Shown here piece by piece: positions 36,846 through 46,767 of a stretch of 64,000 bases of DNA. The translations under genes were made by a program, and so were the position numbers. The stretch comes from Sandaracinus amylolyticus (lineage in GTDB: Bacteria > Myxococcota_A > Polyangia > Polyangiales > Sandaracinaceae): assembly GCF_021631985.1 (NCBI RefSeq), contig NZ_CP070225.1, positions 2,542,001-2,606,000 on the forward strand. Direction: 5' to 3'. The stretch's first letter is position 1, and every line of letters begins with the position of its first letter. Below the pieces are notes generated by a model that did no database searches, had not been told where the DNA came from, and saw only the letters and a program-made list of their open reading frames with translations.

Positions 36846-39800
36846 CTACCGGCGGCGGACCTGGTTGCGGCGGTTCATCATCTCGCGCCGCTGGGCCGCG
36901 CGATCCGCGGTCTTGCCGAGCTCCTCCGCGCCGCCGCCCGCGTCGCCGCCGCCACCGAGGTAGCTCGCGAGCGCCGCGATCGTCGGGAACCGGAAGATGT
37001 CGGTGATCGTCAGGTCCTTGCCGGTCGCCTGCTTGATCTCGCGGTGCGCCTGGACGGCGAGCAGCGAGTGACCGCCGAGCTCGAAGAAGTTGTCCTGGGT
37101 GCCCACCTTCGAGAGCCCGAGGATGCGCATCCAGATCGCGGCGATCTGCTTCTCGATCTCGCTCTCCGCGGCGACGAACTCCGCGGCCGAGGCGCGCCCC
37201 GCGCTCTCGTCGGGCTTCGGGAGCTGCTTGCGATCGATCTTGTTGTTCGGCGTGAGCGGGAAGCGCGCGAGCTCCACGAAGTGCGAGGGCACCATGAACT
37301 CGGGGAGCGTCACGCGGAGGTGCGCGCGCAGCTTCTCGGGGTCGGGCGTGTGGCCCTGGGCCGCCGTGTAGTACGCGACGAGGCGCTTGTCGCCCGGGTT
37401 GTCCTCGCGCGCGACGACGACCACCTCGCGCACGTCCTCGTGGTTCGACAGGCGCGACTCGATCTCGCCGAGCTCGATGCGGTAGCCGCGGATCTTCACC
37501 TGGTGATCCACGCGACCGAGGAACTCGACGCGCCCGTCGCCGGCCCAGCGCACGAGGTCGCCGGTGCGGTACATCCGCGCGCCCTCGATCTTCACGAAGG
37601 GATCGGGGACGAAGCGCTCCTCGGTGAGGTCGGGGCGCTGCCAGTAGCCGCGCGCGACGCCCGCACCGCCGATCCACAGCTCGCCCGGCGCGCCCACCGG
37701 CACCGGCTGGCGCGCGGCGTCGAGCACGTAGAGCTGCGTGTTCGCGATCGGCTTGCCGATCGACACCGTGCCCTCGACCGGCGCCGCGACCTCGGTGGAC
37801 GACCAGATGGTCGTCTCGGTCGGGCCGTACATGTTCGTCAGTGTCGCGCGCGTCGCCTGTGCGAGCTCCGCGACGAGCGAGCCCGGGAGCGCCTCGCCGC
37901 CGACGAACATGTGCTTCACGTGCGCGAGCGCGGTGCGCGCCTCGTCGTTGCCGAGGAGCATGCGCAGCATGCTCGGCGTGCACTGCAGGTGCGTGATGCG
38001 GTGCCGGACGATCTGCGCGGCGATCGACCAGTCGTCCTCGTCGACGCGCGGCTTGGGCTCCGCGGCGAGGCGCAGTCGATTGAGGTGATCGAGGTGCGCG
38101 AGCACGGTGTCGCTGTCGATCCCGTAGTCGATGAGGCACGCGATCTCGTCGACGCCGATCGCCTTGCACTCGTTCACGCGCTGGAGCGCGCTCTCCGGCG
38201 TGCCGAAGAGACCGCTCGTCTCGTAGTAGCGCTCGAACGCGTGATCGAGCAGCGCGTCCGCGTCCTCCTGCGAGAGCGACGTGAAGTTGTCCTCGAAGGT
38301 CGCGCCTTCCTTCGCGTGCTTCTTGAACGCGGGGAACGCCCACGCGTGCGCGGCGATGAGGTTCATCGAGCTGCGCAGGTAGTCCTTCATCGGCTCGCGC
38401 GCGGTCTCCTTCACGGCGCGCTCGTCGTCTCCGATGAACGTGTGGAGCATGAGGGTGACGTGCCCCTCGCCCTCGTGGCCCGAGTCCTTCCAGGCCTTGC
38501 GATAGACCGCGACCTTCTCGCGCACCTCGTCGAGGCTCTGACCGAGCAGGTGCGTGAGGATGCCGGCGCCCATGCGGCCTGCGGCCGCGAACGTCTCGGG
38601 GTTGCCCGCGGCCGTGACCCACACCGGCAGCTCGGGCTGCACCGGGCGCGGCAGCGTCTTCACCTTCACGGGGCCCTTCGGGCCTTCGAACTCGAGCGTC
38701 TCGCCGCGCCAGAGCTTCCGGACGATCTCGATGTCGCGCACCATCGCGCCCTTCGCGTTCGCGAAGTTCTCGGGGCGCAGCACGAAGTCGTTGGGGTGCC
38801 AGCCGCTCGCGAACGAGATGCCGACGCGACCGTTCGAGAGGTTGTCGACGAGCGCCCACTCCTCCGCGACGCGGATCGGGTGGTGCAGCGGGAGCACGCA
38901 CGAGCCCGAGCGGATCTTCACGTGCTGCGTGACCGCGGCGATCGCGGCGCTCGCGACGCTCGGGTTCGGATAGAGACCGCCGAACGCGCCGAAGTGTCGC
39001 TCCGGGGTCCACACCGCCTGGAAGCCGTTGCGATCGGCGAGCTTCGCGCCCTCGAGGAGCAGGCGGTACTTGCCCGCGTTCTTCTCGCCCTCGTCGCTCG
39101 CGAAGTAGAAGAGCGAGAACCCGATCTTGCGATCGCTGCCGGGCGCACGACCGCTCGAGACGAGCGCGCGATCCTCGTCGCTCGAGAGCACGACCTCGAA
39201 GCCGCGGCAGAGCGTCCAGAAGAGCTCGAGCACCGAGATGTCGAACGAGAGGCTCGTCACCGCGAGCCAGCGCGCGTCCGTCGGTCGCGGGATCACCGGG
39301 TCCATGCCGGTGAAGAAGTTCGCGACGTGACGGTGCTCGATCATCACGCCCTTGGGGCGGCCGGTCGAGCCCGACGTGTAGATGACGTACGCGAGGCTCG
39401 CGCTGTCGGTCTCGCGCGCCGGGCGGGTGCGCGGCTCGCTCACGAACGACGACGCGTCGGCGTCGAGGCGGAGGATCGTCGCGCCCGTCTGCGGGAGCGC
39501 GTGCGCGAGGTGCTCCTTCGTGAGCACCACCTTCGCCTGCGAGTCCTCGACGTAGAGCGCGACGCGATCCGCGGGGTAGCTCGGATCGACGGGCACGTAC
39601 GCGCCGCCCGCCTTCCAGATCGCGAGCGCGCCGATCACGAGCTCGGGCGAACGATCGACGTGCAGCGCGACCAGCGTGTCGCGACCGACGCCGAGCGCGA
39701 TCAGCTTGTGCGCGAGCTGGTTCGCACGCTCGTCGAGCGCGCGGTACGTGAGGCGCTCGCGCTCGAACGCGAGGGCGATCGCGTCGGGCGTGCGATCGAC

Positions 39801-41516
39801 CTGCGCCTCGAAGAGCTGGTGCACCGAGCGATCGGCGGGGTAGTCGGTCGTCGTCGCGTTCCACTGGCGGAGCACGCGATCGAGCTCGTCGGCGGGCAAC
39901 AGCGGCAGGCGCGCGACCTGCGTCGCGGCATCGCTCGCCGCGCCCTGCAGCAGCGTGCCGAAGCGGCCGACCATCTTCTCGAGGTGCGCCGCCGCGACGC
40001 GCGTGCTGTCGATGATCAGCGTCGCGCGCGAGCCATCGGGGCTGATCGCGATCTCGAGCACCTCGCCGGCGCGCGGCTTCACGGTGTCGAGCGCGTCGGT
40101 CTCCTCGACCGCGATCTCGATCTTCGCGGCGCCGAGGCCCGGCGTACGCGCGACGAGATCGCGCGGGAAGGTGAGGTGCTCGCGCAGTCGCTCGCGATCG
40201 GCCGCGATCTTCTCGCGCAGCTCGGCGAACGTGACCGAGTCGCCGAGCTCGACGCGCAGCGGGACCGACTGCGCGAAGAAGCGCTCCACGCCCTGCGTCG
40301 CGCTGGTGATCGCGCCGTGGCGATAGCCGACGTCGAACGTGCGGTTGCCCGTGATGCGCGCGAGCCACGCGATCGCGGCGGCGAGCGTCGACGCTGCGTC
40401 CATCCCCGCCGGCACCGGCACGGGCGCGCGCACGAAGACGGGCGCCTTGCTCGGCGTGCGATCCGCGTACGGGAGCTCGATCGGCGCGACCTGCGCGAGG
40501 CGCTTCGCCCAGAACGTCTCGTGCTTCGCGAGCTGCTGATCGGCCTCGCCGAGGCGCGCCGCGCGCGTCTCTTCGAGCGCGGGAAGACGCGCGCCCTTCA
40601 CGATGCCGTGCTTCGCGAGCGCGGCGTCGTCCTGCGGGATGCCGCTCACGCACGTCGCGCGGGGGAAGCGCAGCGTGCCCTGGCCCGTCGCGACCTCGAT
40701 CGCACCGTGCTCGATCGCGACGATCGTGCCCGGCTCGTCGCTCGCCTCGGCGCTCCCCTCGATCACCTCGGGGAGCAGCAGCGGATCGGTCGAGGTCTGC
40801 GTCTTCGCCGCGCCGACCGGGTTCGCGTAGCGCGGGCCGAAGTCGAGCGCGCGGATCAGCGCCGCGATCTTCGACGCGGGCTGCGCCCAGTCGATCGTGC
40901 ACATCGCCGCGGGACGGTCGTAGCGCCCGAAGTACGTGCGCTGCGAGAGGTCCTGCTTGGTGCGCTGCTCGGTGCCGGTGCCGAGCTGATCGACGAGCTC
41001 GCTGAACGACTCGATCGCCGCCTCGTAGCAGCGCGTGTTGAGCACCACCGAGGTGTCGCGCTCGCCGATCCCGAACGTGCGCTGCGCGAGGATGTCGCCC
41101 TCGTCGACGCCGCCCTCGATGACGTGCCAGCTGATCCCGTGGCGCGGCTCGGCGTTCAGGATCGCCCACATCGGCGCGTTGAGGCCGGCGTAGCGGGGCA
41201 GCGGGCCGTCGTGGAAGTTGATCGAGCCCCGCTTCGGCATCGCGAGGACGTCGTCGGGGATGATCGTCAGGTTCGCGATCGAGAAGAGCCAGTCGAACTC
41301 GCCTCCTCCGATCGACTCGGTGTGCGCGCGCAGGCGCTCGGCGAGACCCTTGCCCGGCGCGATGCGCGCGACGCCGTTCTGGTCCGCCCACTTCCCGATG
41401 CCCTCGTCCGACGAGACGATGCCGAGCACGGCGTGGCCTCGCGCTCGCAGGATGTCGGCGCACTGGATCGCGAGCGATTCGTTGCCGATCACGTAGCAAC
41501 GGAACGGACTGGACAT
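36846..41516 (-). CDS. NRPS: formyltransferase - partial C - A with inserted luciferase-like monooxygenase - PCP
   Basis: 1556 aa; AAGGGAG stands five bases before the ATG at 41516. Residues 1-310 are a formyltransferase domain with the Asn-His-Asp set visible (INFHDGPLPRYAG near 97-109, GGVDEGDIL near 135). Residues about 330-550 resemble the C-terminal half of a condensation domain without an HHxxxDG motif. The A domain starts near 565, has YTSGSTGRPKGVM near 710, and is then interrupted near 795 by about 335 residues of FMN-dependent luciferase-like monooxygenase (KIGFSLFYFASDEGE to near 1130). It resumes near 1160 and continues with MYGPTETTIW, YRTGDLV and IRGYRIELGEIESRL. A PCP ends it (ELGGHSL, near Ser1480). 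The inserted domain matches the type named MupA/Atu3671 (TIGR04020). There is no TE. It sits between the Wza and Wzz genes. Confidence 0.93.
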   Translation of the reverse strand: MSSPFRCYVIGNESLAIQCADILRARGHAVLGIVSSDEGIGKWADQNGVARIAPGKGLAERLRAHTESIGGGEFDWLFSIANLTIIPDDVLAMPKRGSINFHDGPLPRYAGLNAPMWAILNAEPRHGISWHVIEGGVDEGDILAQRTFGIGERDTSVVLNTRCYEAAIESFSELVDQLGTGTEQRTKQDLSQRTYFGRYDRPAAMCTIDWAQPASKIAALIRALDFGPRYANPVGAAKTQTSTDPLLLPEVIEGSAEASDEPGTIVAIEHGAIEVATGQGTLRFPRATCVSGIPQDDAALAKHGIVKGARLPALEETRAARLGEADQQLAKHETFWAKRLAQVAPIELPYADRTPSKAPVFVRAPVPVPAGMDAASTLAAAIAWLARITGNRTFDVGYRHGAITSATQGVERFFAQSVPLRVELGDSVTFAELREKIAADRERLREHLTFPRDLVARTPGLGAAKIEIAVEETDALDTVKPRAGEVLEIAISPDGSRATLIIDSTRVAAAHLEKMVGRFGTLLQGAASDAATQVARLPLLPADELDRVLRQWNATTTDYPADRSVHQLFEAQVDRTPDAIALAFERERLTYRALDERANQLAHKLIALGVGRDTLVALHVDRSPELVIGALAIWKAGGAYVPVDPSYPADRVALYVEDSQAKVVLTKEHLAHALPQTGATILRLDADASSFVSEPRTRPARETDSASLAYVIYTSGSTGRPKGVMIEHRHVANFFTGMDPVIPRPTDARWLAVTSLSFDISVLELFWTLCRGFEVVLSSDEDRALVSSGRAPGSDRKIGFSLFYFASDEGEKNAGKYRLLLEGAKLADRNGFQAVWTPERHFGAFGGLYPNPSVASAAIAAVTQHVKIRSGSCVLPLHHPIRVAEEWALVDNLSNGRVGISFASGWHPNDFVLRPENFANAKGAMVRDIEIVRKLWRGETLEFEGPKGPVKVKTLPRPVQPELPVWVTAAGNPETFAAAGRMGAGILTHLLGQSLDEVREKVAVYRKAWKDSGHEGEGHVTLMLHTFIGDDERAVKETAREPMKDYLRSSMNLIAAHAWAFPAFKKHAKEGATFEDNFTSLSQEDADALLDHAFERYYETSGLFGTPESALQRVNECKAIGVDEIACLIDYGIDSDTVLAHLDHLNRLRLAAEPKPRVDEDDWSIAAQIVRHRITHLQCTPSMLRMLLGNDEARTALAHVKHMFVGGEALPGSLVAELAQATRATLTNMYGPTETTIWSSTEVAAPVEGTVSIGKPIANTQLYVLDAARQPVPVGAPGELWIGGAGVARGYWQRPDLTEERFVPDPFVKIEGARMYRTGDLVRWAGDGRVEFLGRVDHQVKIRGYRIELGEIESRLSNHEDVREVVVVAREDNPGDKRLVAYYTAAQGHTPDPEKLRAHLRVTLPEFMVPSHFVELARFPLTPNNKIDRKQLPKPDESAGRASAAEFVAAESEIEKQIAAIWMRILGLSKVGTQDNFFELGGHSLLAVQAHREIKQATGKDLTITDIFRFPTIAALASYLGGGGDAGGGAEELGKTADRAAQRREMMNRRNQVRRR

Positions 41517-41579: not shown

Positions 41580-42632
41580 TCAGCGTCCCGAGCCGATGAT
41601 CAGCGACGGCACCGTGATCGACGCCGCGGTGATCGGGATCGAGAGGAGCAGCGAGAGCGAGTTCATGACGTCGCGCAGGTCGGCGTGACCGGCGGAAGCA
41701 ACGTACACGATGTCGCCCGGCGCGAGCACCACGTCATGCGCGTCACCGTCGACGATCGCCGCAACACTGGTCGAATAGACCATCGGATCGGACGCCTCAC
41801 CGCGGATCACACGGACGTCGCCCCAGTTCCCGTCGCGGGTCACGCCGCCCGCGAGCGAGAGCGCGTGGGTCAGACGCATGCCGGGCCGGAACGCCATGAT
41901 GCGCGGCGACCCGACCTGGCCGAGCACGCTCACCAGGCGCCCGAGGTCCGCCGGGACGTAGAGCGTGTCGCCGGGGCGGACGCGGATGTTGTGGCGAGGA
42001 TCGCCGGTGAGCGCGACCTCGAGCGAGATCGGCAGGGCCTCGCCGTTGCGCACGAGGCGCGCGCCGCCGAGGTCGCCCGACGGCATCGAGAAGCCTTCTT
42101 CCTCGGCGACCGCTGCACCGCCCGCCGCGGCGAGCAGGTCCGCGAGGCGCATGCCCGGCGTCACCGCCACGCGCCCGGGCGTGCCGACCGCGCCGAGCAC
42201 GCTCGCGAAGTGCCCGCTGGGCTCGCTCACCACGAGCGACACGCGCGACGTGCGATCGAACTGGCGCATCGCCTCTTCGACGCGACGCTCGGCGTCGGTG
42301 AGGTCGAGACCGCCGACCGGCACGTCGCCCGCGAGCGGGATGTGCAGCACGCCGCGCTCGTCGACGACCAGGCCCTCGTACTCCTCGGTCTCGGTGCTGA
42401 TCAAGCGAAGCGTCACGACGTCGCCCGGGTAGAGCTGCATCGCGGCGGCCGCGTCGTCGGCCATGCCCGGCGGAGTCAGATCGGCGCGTTGGAAGCGCGC
42501 GTCCTCGCTCGGCGTGGTGGGCGTGCGTGGCAGGTTCGGCGAACAGCCTGGACCGAGCGAGCCAGCGATCGCCGCCGTGAGGACACAGGAGAAGAGGTTC
42601 CAGTGTCGACGGAAAGGCGAGCTGATGGTCAT
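41580..42632 (-). CDS. Wza-like polysaccharide export lipoprotein
   Basis: 350 aa outer-membrane polysaccharide export protein. Lipoprotein signal ends GSLGPGC (Cys near residue 30). The poly-export domain is YPGDVVTLRLISTE ... GLVVDERGVLHIPLAGDVPVGGLDLTDAE. Two SLBB-type beta-grasp segments follow (SVLGAVGTPGRVAVTPGMRL and SVLGQVGSPRIMAFRPGMRL), each with a VRPGD- or LAPGD-type turn later. A hydrophobic C-terminal helix (SLSLLLSIPITAASITVPSL) would form the export pore. It lies directly upstream of the NRPS gene on the same strand (63-base gap). Confidence 0.93.
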   Translation of the reverse strand: MTISSPFRRHWNLFSCVLTAAIAGSLGPGCSPNLPRTPTTPSEDARFQRADLTPPGMADDAAAAMQLYPGDVVTLRLISTETEEYEGLVVDERGVLHIPLAGDVPVGGLDLTDAERRVEEAMRQFDRTSRVSLVVSEPSGHFASVLGAVGTPGRVAVTPGMRLADLLAAAGGAAVAEEEGFSMPSGDLGGARLVRNGEALPISLEVALTGDPRHNIRVRPGDTLYVPADLGRLVSVLGQVGSPRIMAFRPGMRLTHALSLAGGVTRDGNWGDVRVIRGEASDPMVYSTSVAAIVDGDAHDVVLAPGDIVYVASAGHADLRDVMNSLSLLLSIPITAASITVPSLIIGSGR

Positions 42633-42698: not shown

Positions 42699-43952
42699 TC
42701 AGAGCTGCGTGATCTCGCGCGGCGGCAACGTGCGACACGTCGGCAGCAGTACGAAGTCACGCAGGGTCACGCCGTCCGCGTCGACGTCGAGGCGATGCAC
42801 GCCGCGCGCGTCCGCGTCGGGGACCAGGAGCAGGCCGCGAGCGGGATCGAGCGCACCGCTGCCGAGCACGAACGAGGCCTCGGCCTCGAGGAGGATCGCC
42901 GTCGAGGCAGCGTCGAGATCGAGCAGCGCGACCACGTCGCGGCCGCTCTCGCCGCGAGGATCGGCGACGTAGATCGCGCGTGATGCGTCGAGGGACACGA
43001 GGCCGGTGGTGGGCGAGGGCGCGCTCTCGTGATCGGATGCGCGCCACACGCGATCGAGCGTGATGCGTCCGTCGGGATCGATCGCGACGCGCGCGATCCC
43101 CGCCTCGCGACGTCGCTCGAGGCCGGGCGCGAATGCGTCGCCGGTGCAGAGGATCATCGCGCGATCGGGCACGCCGGGGATCGCGCGTACGCCGTGGCAC
43201 CCGCTGAGCCCATCGAGCGTGACGAGCTCGGCCCGAGCGCGCGCGACGGGATCGACGACCGCGAGCGCTCCGTCGCCGGTGAGCGTGAAGTCGGCGCTGA
43301 GGCGCTGGAGCCCGACGAGCACGCGGCGCGCGCCGCTCGAATGCGCGATCGGGACGAGCGTGGTCGGGCGCGCGTAGATCGGCGTCCCGTCGGGCGCGCT
43401 GGTGTCGGCGGCGAGATCGATGCGCGTGAGGACGAGCCCCTGCGCGACGTCGACGACGACGACGTCGTTGCCGCGTGCGAGCTCGGGCGCGTCGGGATGA
43501 AAGCTCGGGTTCGCGCGGGCGACGAGCGCGATCGGGCCGTCGATCGCGAGCACGTCCTGCACGTTGGGCGAGTGACCGCTCGGCGCCTCGGGATCGTCGC
43601 CCCGCAGATCGATCTGCCGCACCGCGCCCGTCGCGTAGGCCGCGAGCGTGAGGCGATCGGCGTTGAAGCGCTCGAGCAGCGCGAGCGTGCCGGGCTCGGG
43701 GGTCGCGACGACCACGACGTCGCCGCCGAGGCCCGCGGCGATGCCCGAGGCGCGCGTGCCCGAGTCGATCCACGACTCGGTGATCGCGTCGCCATCCTCG
43801 TCGAGCAGCGCGATCGCGGTCGACGCGTAGTCCGAGAGCACGACGCCGAACGCCGGGGCGCGCGAGATCGGCGCGAGATCCGCGACGTCGCAGGGACGCT
43901 CGGTGCCGCACGCAGCGAGCAGCACGAGCGAAGCGAGGATCGAGCGAGACAC
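42699..43952 (-). CDS. Repeat-rich lipoprotein under cobalamin-riboswitch control
   Basis: 417 aa, no recognised family. The start is a GTG at 43952 (MSRSILASLVLLAACG), with GGAGG six bases upstream and a lipobox LLAAC, so it is a lipoprotein. The body repeats a pattern of beta strands of the 'G-x-V-V-V-x-x-x-x-x-x-L-A-L-L-D/E' type (for example FGVVLSDYASTAIALLDEDG and GDVVVVATPEPGTLALLERF), which suggests a beta-propeller of YVTN/YncE type. A cobalamin riboswitch lies just upstream, so the protein should be made when B12 is scarce. By analogy with BtuG, the B12-binding propeller lipoprotein of Bacteroides, it may capture corrinoids at the cell surface. The function is inference; no btuB lies in the window. 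Confidence 0.82.
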   Translation of the reverse strand: MSRSILASLVLLAACGTERPCDVADLAPISRAPAFGVVLSDYASTAIALLDEDGDAITESWIDSGTRASGIAAGLGGDVVVVATPEPGTLALLERFNADRLTLAAYATGAVRQIDLRGDDPEAPSGHSPNVQDVLAIDGPIALVARANPSFHPDAPELARGNDVVVVDVAQGLVLTRIDLAADTSAPDGTPIYARPTTLVPIAHSSGARRVLVGLQRLSADFTLTGDGALAVVDPVARARAELVTLDGLSGCHGVRAIPGVPDRAMILCTGDAFAPGLERRREAGIARVAIDPDGRITLDRVWRASDHESAPSPTTGLVSLDASRAIYVADPRGESGRDVVALLDLDAASTAILLEAEASFVLGSGALDPARGLLLVPDADARGVHRLDVDADGVTLRDFVLLPTCRTLPPREITQL

Positions 43953-44011
43953 CGGCGACCTCCGAGGCGGGGCGCCCTCCCACGGGACGCCGTGTGCCGT
44001 CGCGCGGATCT

Positions 44012-44255
44012 CGCGCGACACCGTCGGCAGGTCTTCGGGCTCGCAGGCGCTCGGATCGCGATCGATCCGGTCTCTACTGGCCGTCGCTTCCCAGAGGACC
44101 ATTCCTCCAGTGCTCGGGACGGCGTTCGTTCCTGCACACCGCTGCGGGGCAGCTCCGGATTCGCACCGGATTCCCTCGAGGCGCGCGGTCCCACCGCACG
44201 CACCGCTGGCGAGCGCGAACGTGGCGGGCGCAGCGGGAGCCGTCAAACCGGGGCC
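44012..44255 (-). promoter_or_regulatory. Cobalamin riboswitch
   Basis: On the minus strand the element reads in order: GGTTTGACGGCTCCCGC (5' stem), GAGGGAATCCGGTGCGAATC, then CGGAGCTGCCCCGCAGCGGT, GAGCACTGG ... CTGGGAAGCGACGGCCAGTA, and the B12 box GAGCCCGAAGACCTGCCGAC. These are the conserved core motifs of the cobalamin riboswitch class (GGGAA..GGTGCGAATCC, GCTGCCCCGC, CCTGCC). The 3' end lies about 60 bases before the GTG of the lipoprotein gene. The space between holds GGGAGGGCGCCCC and the ribosome site GGAGG, so control by blocking translation is plausible. The minus-strand promoter must overlap the 5' end of the divergent RCC1 gene. Confidence 0.95.
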
Positions 44256-44292
44256 GGATGGAAATCCGCGCCCGTCCGGCGTACCAGCGGGA

Positions 44293-45561
44293 ATGCGTGA
44301 TGCGGTGAGGCTCCCACTGGTGTGCGCGGCGTGCCTGCTCGCGCCGGGCTGTTATCTCGCGCACACGCTCGACGAGCCTGCGCCGATCGACGCGAGCGTC
44401 GTGGATGCGCGTGTGTCGCGTCCCGACGCGGGCCCGCCGCCGCCGCCCGAAGAGCCGCCGCCCGGCACGCGCGTCGTGCAGATCGCGGCGGGCGGGGATC
44501 ACGTCTGCGCCCTCAGCGAGCAGGGCGCGCTCTACTGCTGGGGCGAGAACGAGATCGGCCAGCTCGGCGTGAACGAGCGGCGCTCGACCACGCGACCGCT
44601 GCGCGTTCACGGCCTGCCGCGCGTCGCGTCGGTGAGCGCGGGGCCGAGCCACACCTGCGCGGTGGACCTCGACGGCGGGCTCTGGTGCTGGGGCTTCGAC
44701 TACTACCGTCAGCTCGGCGTCGCGCGCGAGGACGTGCCCGACTGCGGTCGCGCGGTGTGCAGCCCGATCCCGCTGCGAGTGCCCGACCTGCCTCCGATGC
44801 GACGCGTGTGGATCGGCGTCCACGCCACGTGCGCGGAGCTCGCCCCGGGCGACGAGCTGCGCTGCTGGGGCAACGACGCGGCGTCCCGCGCGGTCGTGCG
44901 GTCCGGGCTGCGCCAGGCGCGCGACCTCGGGATGGGGCTCGGACACGCGTGCCTGTGGCTGCCGGATGGACGCGTGCGGTGTGTGGGCGACGCGACGTTC
45001 GGGCGCTCGGGCGACGAAGGACGGGGCGACGGCTTCGTCGATCTCGAGGGCGTGATCGACATCGAGGTGGGGACGGATCACGCGTGCGCGCTGCTCGCCG
45101 ACACCCGCGTGCTCTGCTGGGGATACAACTGGGACGGCGCGCTCGGCATCAAGGAGGGGCTGCCCTACTGCGTGCACGGCGACACCGGCGGTCCGTGCGC
45201 CATCGCGCCGGTCGCGCCCACGGGCGAGCCCACCGGGACCGCGCTCTCGATCGGGAGCCATCGCTCGTGCGTGATCGAGACCGGCGGCGGGGTGACGTGC
45301 TGGGGCCCGTGGACGATCGACGGCAGCACGAGCTGGTGCGGCGGCGGAGCGCTCCCCGACGAGTGCGATCCGACGCCGACGCGCGTGCCCGGCCTCGAGG
45401 CGGCGCGCGCGATCGCGACCGGCGACAGCGTCGCGTGCGCGATCGTCGAGAACGGCGGCGTCGCGTGCTGGGGCTGGGGCTCGCACGGACAGCTCGGGCA
45501 CGGCCGCGAGGAGGGCGCGATCGTGCGCGAGCCGGTGCGCGTCATCGGCTTCGGCGAGTGA
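44293..45561 (+). CDS. RCC1-repeat lipoprotein
   Basis: 422 aa from the ATG at 44293. Lipoprotein signal ends LLAPGC, followed by a Pro-rich linker (PPPPPEEPPPG). The rest consists of about seven RCC1-type propeller blades of the form 'I-A-A-G-x-x-H-x-C-A-L-x-x-x-G-x-L-x-C-W-G-x-N-x-x-G-Q-L-G', each with Cys residues that probably pair. This Cys-rich RCC1 type is common in extracellular myxobacterial proteins; ligand unknown. Its 3' end overlaps the convergent gene at 45542 by 20 bases. Confidence 0.92.
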   Translation: MRDAVRLPLVCAACLLAPGCYLAHTLDEPAPIDASVVDARVSRPDAGPPPPPEEPPPGTRVVQIAAGGDHVCALSEQGALYCWGENEIGQLGVNERRSTTRPLRVHGLPRVASVSAGPSHTCAVDLDGGLWCWGFDYYRQLGVAREDVPDCGRAVCSPIPLRVPDLPPMRRVWIGVHATCAELAPGDELRCWGNDAASRAVVRSGLRQARDLGMGLGHACLWLPDGRVRCVGDATFGRSGDEGRGDGFVDLEGVIDIEVGTDHACALLADTRVLCWGYNWDGALGIKEGLPYCVHGDTGGPCAIAPVAPTGEPTGTALSIGSHRSCVIETGGGVTCWGPWTIDGSTSWCGGGALPDECDPTPTRVPGLEAARAIATGDSVACAIVENGGVACWGWGSHGQLGHGREEGAIVREPVRVIGFGE

Positions 45562-45889
45562 GCCAGGCCTCGAACGCGCGCGCCTCGGCGCGCGGATGGA
45601 ACGCGTGCATCGGGACCTCGCGGTGGTACGCGCGGAAGAGCGCGGCGAACACCCGGGGATCGAGCTCGGCACGGTGGGCGGCTTCGTCGCTGCCCGCGAT
45701 CAGGCGCTCGAACCGGAGGCGCGCGACGAGGAGCGCCTGCATGCGCGCTCCGTCGGGATCGACGCGCGCGAGCGCATCGCGCGTGGCCTCGTCGAGCGCG
45801 GGATCGCCGGCGGCTTCGCGCAGCGCGGCGACGGGATCCTCGGCGCGCATCGCCGCCGCGAGGATCTGCTCGAGGCGCGCGCGGCTCAT
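45542..45889 (-). CDS. Small protein of the DUF692 operon
   Basis: 115 aa, cytoplasmic, helical, function unknown. It begins MSRARLEQILAAAMRAEDPV and holds a conserved-looking stretch DPRVFAALFRAYHREVPMHA followed by FHPRAEARAFEAWL. It overlaps the DUF692 gene end by four bases (ATGA), so it is made together with it. In known MNIO systems a small partner binds the substrate peptide; this protein is a candidate partner, but it does not resemble MbnC or DUF2063 by eye. It is the last gene of the operon. Confidence 0.75.
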   Translation of the reverse strand: MSRARLEQILAAAMRAEDPVAALREAAGDPALDEATRDALARVDPDGARMQALLVARLRFERLIAGSDEAAHRAELDPRVFAALFRAYHREVPMHAFHPRAEARAFEAWLTRRSR

Positions 45890-46767
45890 CGTCCGGCCCT
45901 CGCGATCGCGCCGCGGATGCGCGTGAGCTCCTCGTCGAGGGCGCGCGCGGTCGCGGCGTCGGGGACGGTGCCCTCCATGCGCTCCAGCGTCACGCCGCGC
46001 AGGTGAGCGCAACGCGGGAGCACTTCGTCGAGCAGCGTCCACACCGGCTCGGGCACCGCGTCGTCGTGACCATCGAGCCGCATCGTGCGGCCCGACGGGA
46101 GCCAGCGCGGATCGCTCTCGCGCCCGCCGCTCACGTGGAGCTCGATCACGCGATCGAGCGGCGCACGCGCGAGCCACGCGTGCGGATCGAAGCCGTGGAG
46201 CAGCGACATCGTGTGCAGGTTGTGCAGGTCGAGCAGCAGGTGACGCCGCGGTGCGTCGAGCGCGCTCGCGAGCAGGCGCGGCTCGTCGAGGGGATCGCCG
46301 AGCACGAAGTAGACGACCGAGTTCTCCACGCCGACGTCGGGCACCACGCGCGACATGAGCTCGAGCCGTGCGCGCAGCGTCGTGGTGGTCCGCGCGTCGT
46401 AGGGCATCGGCATCGGGAGCGCCGTGACCTCGCCGCCCAGCGTCGTCGCGCCGAGGTGATCGGTCCACCACGCGTAGCCGAAGAGCGCGGCGTCCTCGCG
46501 CATCCGCTCGAGCCATGCGCGGGTGCGCGCCTCGTCGCCCTCGCTGCAGGTCGAGAACCCGACACCGTGCGCGACCACCGGCTTGTCCCACGCGCGCACC
46601 GCCGCGAGGAAGCGCGCGTGGAAGCCGTTCGGCACCAGCGCGCCGTCCTCGCGATCGATCCACGTCGTCTCGGGCGTGATCTCGAGGTAGTCGGCGCGGC
46701 GCGCGATCCGCGCCACGCGCGCCAGCGTCTCGTCGTCGGGCGGCAGCGCGAAGCCGACGCCGATCAC
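45886..46767 (-). CDS. DUF692 / MNIO family iron-dependent oxidase (MbnB-like)
   Basis: 293 aa TIM-barrel enzyme of the multinuclear non-heme iron oxidase family, whose members (MbnB, BufB) modify Cys residues of peptides. Family motifs in order: GFALPPDDETL, YLEITPETTW, VVAHGVGFSTCS, WWTDHLGATTLGG, DVGVENSVVYF, LLLDLHNLHTMSLLHGFDP, IELHVSGG, LDGHDDAVPEPVW and VTLERMEG. These hold the His, Glu, Asp and Asn positions that bind the irons in the family. The GTG start overlaps the upstream stop by four bases (GTGA). The operon order is lipoprotein, Tat-like protein, DUF692, small protein. Confidence 0.93.
   Translation of the reverse strand: MIGVGFALPPDDETLARVARIARRADYLEITPETTWIDREDGALVPNGFHARFLAAVRAWDKPVVAHGVGFSTCSEGDEARTRAWLERMREDAALFGYAWWTDHLGATTLGGEVTALPMPMPYDARTTTTLRARLELMSRVVPDVGVENSVVYFVLGDPLDEPRLLASALDAPRRHLLLDLHNLHTMSLLHGFDPHAWLARAPLDRVIELHVSGGRESDPRWLPSGRTMRLDGHDDAVPEPVWTLLDEVLPRCAHLRGVTLERMEGTVPDAATARALDEELTRIRGAIARAGR

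Follow-up and report, generated by a model that had tools for sequence, protein, structure and literature searches.

A BtuG-like lipoprotein gene behind a cobalamin riboswitch in Sandaracinus amylolyticus and its relatives in Myxococcota

BtuG1, BtuG2 and BtuG3 are surface B12-binding lipoproteins of Bacteroides. In the available part of PMC6143338, BtuG homologues are given as exclusive to Bacteroidetes on the basis of BlastP against 313 human gut strains, and the lipoprotein export signal is described as exclusive to the same group. Lipoprotein-capped TonB transporters likewise seem exclusive to Bacteroidetes according to the accessible text of PMC10404256. The accessible portion of PMC13398666 reports the PF16819 propeller domain beside DUF4465 proteins and mentions Myxococcota for DUF4465 only. 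In PMC9304148, a paper on B12 in myxobacteria, the words "uptake", "BtuB" and "riboswitch" do not occur. No BtuG-like protein in myxobacteria appears among the matches listed in the literature searched by titles and the starts of abstracts, a scope that leaves most subscription papers outside. Within that literature, in its accessible parts, the BtuG-like family described here belongs to a phylum for which published work reports no BtuG.

The member from which the family was traced, P0001, is encoded in a 64,000-nt stretch of an S. amylolyticus contig (NZ_CP070225.1, positions 2,542,001 to 2,606,000), hereafter the window. From sequence comparison and predicted structure, we consider it quite probable that P0001 is a corrinoid-capturing lipoprotein that serves a BtuB-type receptor and is a distant homologue of BtuG. 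A preliminary description of this DNA had already proposed a corrinoid-capturing protein functionally like BtuG. The riboswitch, its linkage to the family and the predicted fold support that proposal, in which binding is a prediction.

The riboswitch, the lipoprotein gene and the host

A covariance-model search, as the preliminary description had suggested, returned a cobalamin riboswitch aptamer upstream of the lipoprotein gene (Table 1). The match has a cmscan score of 80.8 bits, where 31.5 is the cut-off, and an E of 2.6e-18; it spans positions 1-189 of the 189-position RF00174 model and is the sole Rfam match at gathering scores in the whole window. Its assignment to RF00174 rests on a score above the gathering cut-off across the entire aptamer. 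The element had been placed at 44012-44255 on the minus strand, which agrees with the match to within about 33 nt, and the predicted gap of about 60 bases to the GTG measures 56 nt. A Shine-Dalgarno-like GGAGG at 43959-43963(-) lies 6 nt 5' of the GTG at 43952. No terminator-like site was found on the minus strand in 43850-44400, and since none separates the aptamer from the gene, the sequence makes action on translation likelier than action by a terminator. The leader fold (43935-44060) is not unusually stable relative to shuffles (z -0.98), and for this reason no expression platform is named. Repression by B12 is usual for the cobalamin riboswitch class, and by analogy we infer the same sense of regulation here. 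The pairing recurs in a second genome of the genus, with 57 nt between riboswitch and gene and a protein that is 90% identical.

Table 1. Features of the window and of related riboswitch loci; positions are those of the window unless a locus is named
Feature	Location	Strand	Basis or remark
Cobalamin riboswitch aptamer (RF00174)	44009..44222	-	cmscan; one of six RF00174 matches in the host genome
56-nt leader, aptamer to start codon, presumed expression platform	43953..44008	-	sequence
Lipoprotein P0001, 417 aa, GTG start, predicted BtuG-like beta-propeller	42699..43952	-	translation; AF2; PDB comparison; downstream of one of the host's six riboswitches
Short signal peptide and lipobox-like LAAC, Cys15	43908..43952	-	motif read by eye
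Predicted propeller body, residues 30-417	42702..43865	-	alignment A1 of 35; model strands
Polysaccharide export (SLBB/Poly_export) gene	41580..42632	-	Pfam PF02563, PF10531, PF22461
Ribonucleotide reductase large chain	L007		downstream of host riboswitch
Cobalamin-independent methionine synthase	L008		downstream of host riboswitch
242-aa lipoprotein, then CobT-type phosphoribosyltransferase and CobS	L009		downstream of host riboswitch
Riboswitch, TonB receptor, lipoprotein paralogue, Peripla_BP_2, FecCD, ABC ATPase, CobU	L010, G000:C1:5.93 Mb		host operon, in this order
398-aa lipoprotein	L011		downstream of host riboswitch; no Pfam match
LIC_13355-type lipoprotein family	L009:2352-3080; L045, L046, L047, L050, L051, L053, L063, L077	+ (L009)

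The 417-aa lipoprotein with a GTG start had been anticipated, and the open reading frame bears it out. Its N-terminus reads MSRSILASLVLLAACGTE (first residue printed as V, from GTG), and the lipoprotein signal expected of a BtuG is present, with LAAC at residues 12-15 (by eye). The sequence profiles named below are A1, built from 35 members of the P0001 family; A5, from 14 divergent Myxococcota members; and A6, a combined profile. The Cys15 column is at least 90% conserved in A1, and a loose lipobox pattern occurs in 29 of 35 A1 rows, some of which have no N-terminus, and in 9 of 14 A5 rows. Ten residues are invariant in all 35 A1 members (N130, D133, R146, G161, D163, P196, C252, C269, G271 and D339); with two cysteines among them, this pattern is compatible with an extracytoplasmic protein of one conserved function. 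P0001 has no Pfam or NCBIfam family above cut-off, its best Pfam matches lying below it at E 0.044. The term "repeat-rich", applied to it earlier, is apt only in the sense of the irregular strand repeat of a propeller.

The polysaccharide export gene begins 66 nt after the P0001 stop codon with no terminator-like site in between, so the two genes may be co-transcribed. We do not think that the export gene is part of B12 uptake; a relative of it also follows the P0001 homologue in the genomes G001 and G002. No receptor gene lies beside the window copy of the lipoprotein gene. The protein had been called a lone lipoprotein, which holds insofar as no B12 genes adjoin it and fails insofar as the next gene, possibly co-transcribed, follows so closely. 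As a description of the family it also falls short, the family being much wider and including a receptor-linked paralogue in the same genome. Three further genes lie nearby: a RiPP-modifying enzyme of the MbnB/TglH/ChrH family (PF05114) at 45886-46767(-), in the same-strand gene run upstream of the riboswitch gene; a large protein with formyltransferase, AMP-binding, luciferase-like monooxygenase and carrier domains at 36846-41492(-), adjoining the polysaccharide export gene; and an RCC1-repeat protein with a signal-peptide-like N-terminus at 44293-45561(+), divergent from the riboswitch gene.

The host genome (10.96 Mb) has six RF00174 matches (Table 1). In the L010 operon the ABC genes are BtuF/C/D-like, and the lipoprotein paralogue, encoded at G000:C1:5931314-5932534, is 37% identical to P0001. 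The third host paralogue, at L011, points away from its riboswitch. There, and likewise at L132, a riboswitch is followed by a lipoprotein that lacks a Pfam match (L011:2411-3607(+), L132:1989-3347(-)) and the divergent BtuG-like paralogue faces the opposite way across the same intergenic region. The search for corrin-ring genes in the host covered CbiC (PF02570) and CbiD (PF01888), neither of which gave a match; among 14 control genomes, the CbiC search was positive in 7 and the CbiD search in 6. This apparent absence points to dependence on external corrinoids, and the host is therefore probably unable to build the corrin ring and imports or scavenges corrinoids. The genome of another Sandaracinus strain is said to have a cobalamin biosynthesis pathway (PMC9306752, in its accessible part); that pathway may comprise late steps only, or it could weaken the scavenger argument.

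Clustering found a second lipoprotein family, LIC_13355, at nine loci, each time 3' of a cobalamin riboswitch. It stands beside a BtuG-like gene or its receptor at eight of the nine, in a set of loci fetched for riboswitches or BtuG-like genes. Two of three members scanned exceed the LIC_13355 NCBIfam cut-off. The 240-aa neighboring lipoprotein (cluster c2) had been considered as a DUF4465/BtuH protein and was rejected as such: a Pfam scan showed no DUF4465, and NCBIfam placed it in LIC_13355. The Leptospira protein LIC_13355 has reportedly been studied for binding activities (PMC11891782). It is worth asking whether lipoproteins of this type have a B12-related role.

Distribution of the family and its linkage to riboswitches and TonB receptors

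With the window protein as query, relatives were found at 38 places in 36 of 56 genomes, host included. The preliminary description had asked whether homologues also follow riboswitches, and most of them do. At 28 of the 38 order-level places, the window's own among them, a cobalamin riboswitch lies within 4.5 kb 5' of the gene, always on the same strand and at a distance of 57 to 4,420 nt. The chance expectation is 0.03 (P about 1e-81 if places were independent, a yardstick only, as relatives are not independent). The other ten places have no riboswitch, and a second gathering-threshold search of those ten loci found none; two of them begin at a contig end. In G002, which is of the same genus and has the relative that comes next after the 90% one, 52-53% identical to P0001, there is no riboswitch at the locus even at E up to 10.

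Across the phylum, a profile search found the BtuG-like family in 104 of 377 genomes (E up to 1e-3). Outside the order, a same-strand 5' riboswitch occurs at 10 of 20 strong places and 11 of 15 weak ones. The strong set is 20 of the 29 strong places outside the order (E <1e-30), at least a few of which had shown a riboswitch before selection. Riboswitch counts in the weak set are biased, its 20 regions having been picked from weak profile matches and several of them for a nearby riboswitch; one region (L132) was chosen for its divergent paralogue, and of the remaining 19 four contained no place of the family, which leaves the 15. An alignment-based contig scan with one peptide pattern gave 35 loci and says little about other phyla. 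The 35 named loci L078-L112 partly duplicate loci carrying genome handles; 23 of them were examined for riboswitches, and 17 of these have a same-strand riboswitch no more than 4.5 kb 5' (16 by a script that kept the nearest riboswitch, L099 by hand), one of the 17 (L089) being cut by a contig end. No P0001 relative was found in the plasmid records or in a single-sequence scan of the genome contigs.

A 35-member tree places the window protein, with weak support, in a clade whose nine copies all come from the family Sandaracinaceae. Five of the nine belong to riboswitch operons that include a LIC_13355-type lipoprotein, and one of these five adjoins a receptor as well; two of the nine lack a riboswitch. 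The host paralogue that is linked to a receptor branches elsewhere, with modest support.

TonB receptors are frequent neighbors of the family. In raw counts, 18 of 38 order-level places (here with the window left out and a second, divergent member at L050 included) have a same-strand receptor of cluster c1 no more than 500 nt away, and a c1-type receptor is equally close at 16 of the 20 strong places and 13 of the 15 weak ones outside the order, where receptors were recognized by the c1-cluster profile alone, which cannot tell B12 receptors from other TonB receptors. Of the 35 named places, 26 have a TonB receptor as neighbor. Six of the 18 c1-cluster members were scanned with Pfam; all six have the TonB barrel and five the Plug domain, the sixth being cut by a contig end. 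Whether homologues neighbor btuB, as had been asked, thus has a divided answer: many adjoin TonB receptors, and the two linked receptors that were compared with BtuB (TIGR01779, cut-off 599.7 bits) score far below it, at 66.0 for L010 and 71.6 for L054. The L010 receptor matches the siderophore receptor MxcH better than BtuB in NCBIfam.

Predicted fold and relation to BtuG

An AlphaFold2 model of P0001, made from a 34-sequence alignment of the window protein and related loci, has a mean pLDDT of 90.5 and a pTM of 0.89 and is an all-beta repeat, that is, a beta-propeller. The "likely beta-propeller body" proposed earlier is thereby upheld as a prediction, and in the suggested comparison with BtuG and YncE the closest solved structures by Z are BtuG. 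The top Foldseek match in the PDB is BtuG2 (8bn0, E 3.4e-9), with non-BtuG propellers directly behind this first chain (1.3e-8) and further BtuG chains after them; XusB stands above some BtuG chains, and BtuK1 (9s6c) is a lower match at rank 41. VIA-align, a second look at Foldseek's own matches, gives BtuG1, BtuG2 and BtuG3 of Bacteroides as the first ten PDB rows (Z 29.5-27.5). The margin is small, with 1l0q at Z 27.4, tied with the lowest BtuG rows, and N2O reductase at Z 26.3. All 50 entries among the matches listed have Z of at least 24. Residues 19-417 align with BtuG2 (Z 29.5, rmsd 3.2, 319 aligned), and the seven-bladed propeller of BtuG is matched through this alignment of the predicted model rather than by a blade count. 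Identity to BtuG in structural alignment is 8-11%.

The family member L105, which belongs to a different class and is related to the host at phylum level only, separates BtuG from other propellers more clearly than P0001 does in the predicted models. Its model (pLDDT 91.4, pTM 0.92) has BtuG as the first 13 Foldseek chains (E 3.2e-14 to 2.4e-12), the next chain following at 2.5e-9. Ranked by Z, BtuG fills the first eight rows (33.9 to 31.4), ahead of 1l0q in ninth at 30.9. Structural identity to BtuG is 15-19%, with 19% to BtuG2 over 309 residues.

Profile searches give a partial bridge in sequence. A1 found no BtuG and nothing usable among PDB sequences. A5 ranks BtuG chains best (E 4.3e-5) and matches A1 at E 2.4e-32 in an HMM-HMM comparison, and the combined A6 ranks E. 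coli YncE first (1.8e-7). Lp49 of Leptospira (PDB 3bws) comes close behind BtuG in the A5 search, at 6.4e-5. BtuG presumably belongs to PF16819, and P0001 is not a member by that measure: the domain is not among the matches for P0001, the 35 A1 members or the 14 A5 members, has no match in the host, and in 377 genomes occurs at 13 places that all lie clear of the BtuG-like family. Outside that family, a weak PF16819 (DUF5074) match below cut-off lies at G017:C993:30754-31281(+), 239 nt after a cobalamin riboswitch. The Foldseek and Z ranks of the two models, taken together with the A5 bridge, make it likely, short of proof, that the family is a distant homologue of BtuG. In view of the missing PF16819, the low BtuB scores of the two receptors compared, the riboswitch-free G002 locus and the lack of a receptor gene beside the window copy, P0001 is filed as a member of a BtuG-like family and not as BtuG.

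Proposed role, alternatives and comparison with known systems

When intracellular adenosylcobalamin is low, the riboswitch would permit synthesis of the lipoprotein, whose anchor would sit in the outer membrane and whose propeller would most likely point outward. Corrinoids, the presumed ligands, would be captured in the central cavity of the propeller and handed to a BtuB-type TonB-dependent receptor. Many relatives have the gene for this receptor as a direct neighbor; for the window copy it would be encoded elsewhere, and the L010 operon carries one.

The same ligand could be handled on the other side of the membrane, by a periplasm-facing lipoprotein that takes corrinoids over from the receptor and delivers them to BtuF, with no outside cap. 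The BtuF-like and BtuCD-like genes in the operon of the L010 paralogue would suit such a ferry, but by Z the nearest folds are those of the surface lids BtuG1-3, and in several divergent members the lipobox cysteine is followed by acidic stretches, as is common in surface lipoproteins; we regard the ferry as unlikely. The window copy might instead be a paralogue with another ligand (another corrinoid, cobinamide, dimethylbenzimidazole or a non-corrinoid) and an accessory role under the riboswitch. It has no adjacent receptor while a receptor-linked paralogue, 37% identical, is encoded in the same genome, and one Sandaracinus strain makes dimethylbenzimidazole-based products (PMC9306752, accessible part). 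Against this stand the five of nine tips of its weakly supported clade whose riboswitch operons include a LIC_13355-type lipoprotein, and the family-invariant residues, which P0001 keeps, so that a change of ligand appears distinctly improbable.

Two other readings would take the protein further from B12. That P0001 is a generic YncE- or lactonase-like propeller, under riboswitch control by chance and with no binding role, is suggested by the first rank of YncE with A6 (1.8e-7) and by the Z of at least 24 shared by all 50 entries among the matches listed; the linkage to riboswitches and TonB receptors, and the Foldseek result for L105, in which BtuG is clear of other propellers, make this very improbable. 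A partnership with a siderophore or heme TonB receptor, on the model of XusB of Bacteroides, could draw on the position of XusB above some BtuG chains in the P0001 matches and on the resemblance of the L010 receptor to MxcH. It is hard to reconcile with cobalamin riboswitches and CobU in the operons, and the best BtuG chain outranks XusB for both models; we give it almost no credence.

Corrinoid capture in the manner of BtuG is thus the reading that we retain for P0001. More broadly, and with moderate confidence, we favor the view that the BtuG-like family is widespread in Myxococcota, has diverged deeply and forms pairs with BtuB-like receptors under the control of cobalamin riboswitches. In Sandaracinaceae one copy would have parted from the receptor and become a corrinoid trap on its own, still under riboswitch control and perhaps scavenging from prey or neighbors. 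Capped transporters would then not be a specialty of Bacteroidota. If so, this strategy of B12 capture is older or more mobile than thought, unnamed Myxococcota genes gain a suggested function, and the evolution of B12 competition becomes testable in a second lineage.

Among described proteins, the YncE/YVTN propellers share the fold class and rank lower by structure for P0001; they are not known to be linked to B12. BtuH, BtuJ (DUF4465) and BtuK of Bacteroides are comparable as accessory B12-binding proteins of riboswitch loci, but BtuK1 is the lower structural match noted above, and BtuJ is a jelly roll (PMC13398666, accessible portion). The lipoprotein-capped BtuB-BtuG transporter (PMC10404256, accessible text) resembles the present loci in that genes for a receptor and a propeller lipoprotein stand side by side behind a B12 riboswitch. 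It differs in that the two receptors compared here fall far below BtuB cut-offs and their complex with the lipoprotein is a putative one. Closest are BtuG1, BtuG2 and BtuG3 themselves (PDB 3DSM, 8BMY, 8BN0, 8OKV, 8P97). The likeness lies in a lipoprotein with a predicted propeller fold, in B12-riboswitch loci, in a TonB receptor that is often a neighbor within the family and in BtuFCD-like genes in some operons. The differences are a structural identity of 8-11% for P0001 (15-19% for L105), no match to PF16819, a window copy without a neighboring receptor, and a home in another phylum.
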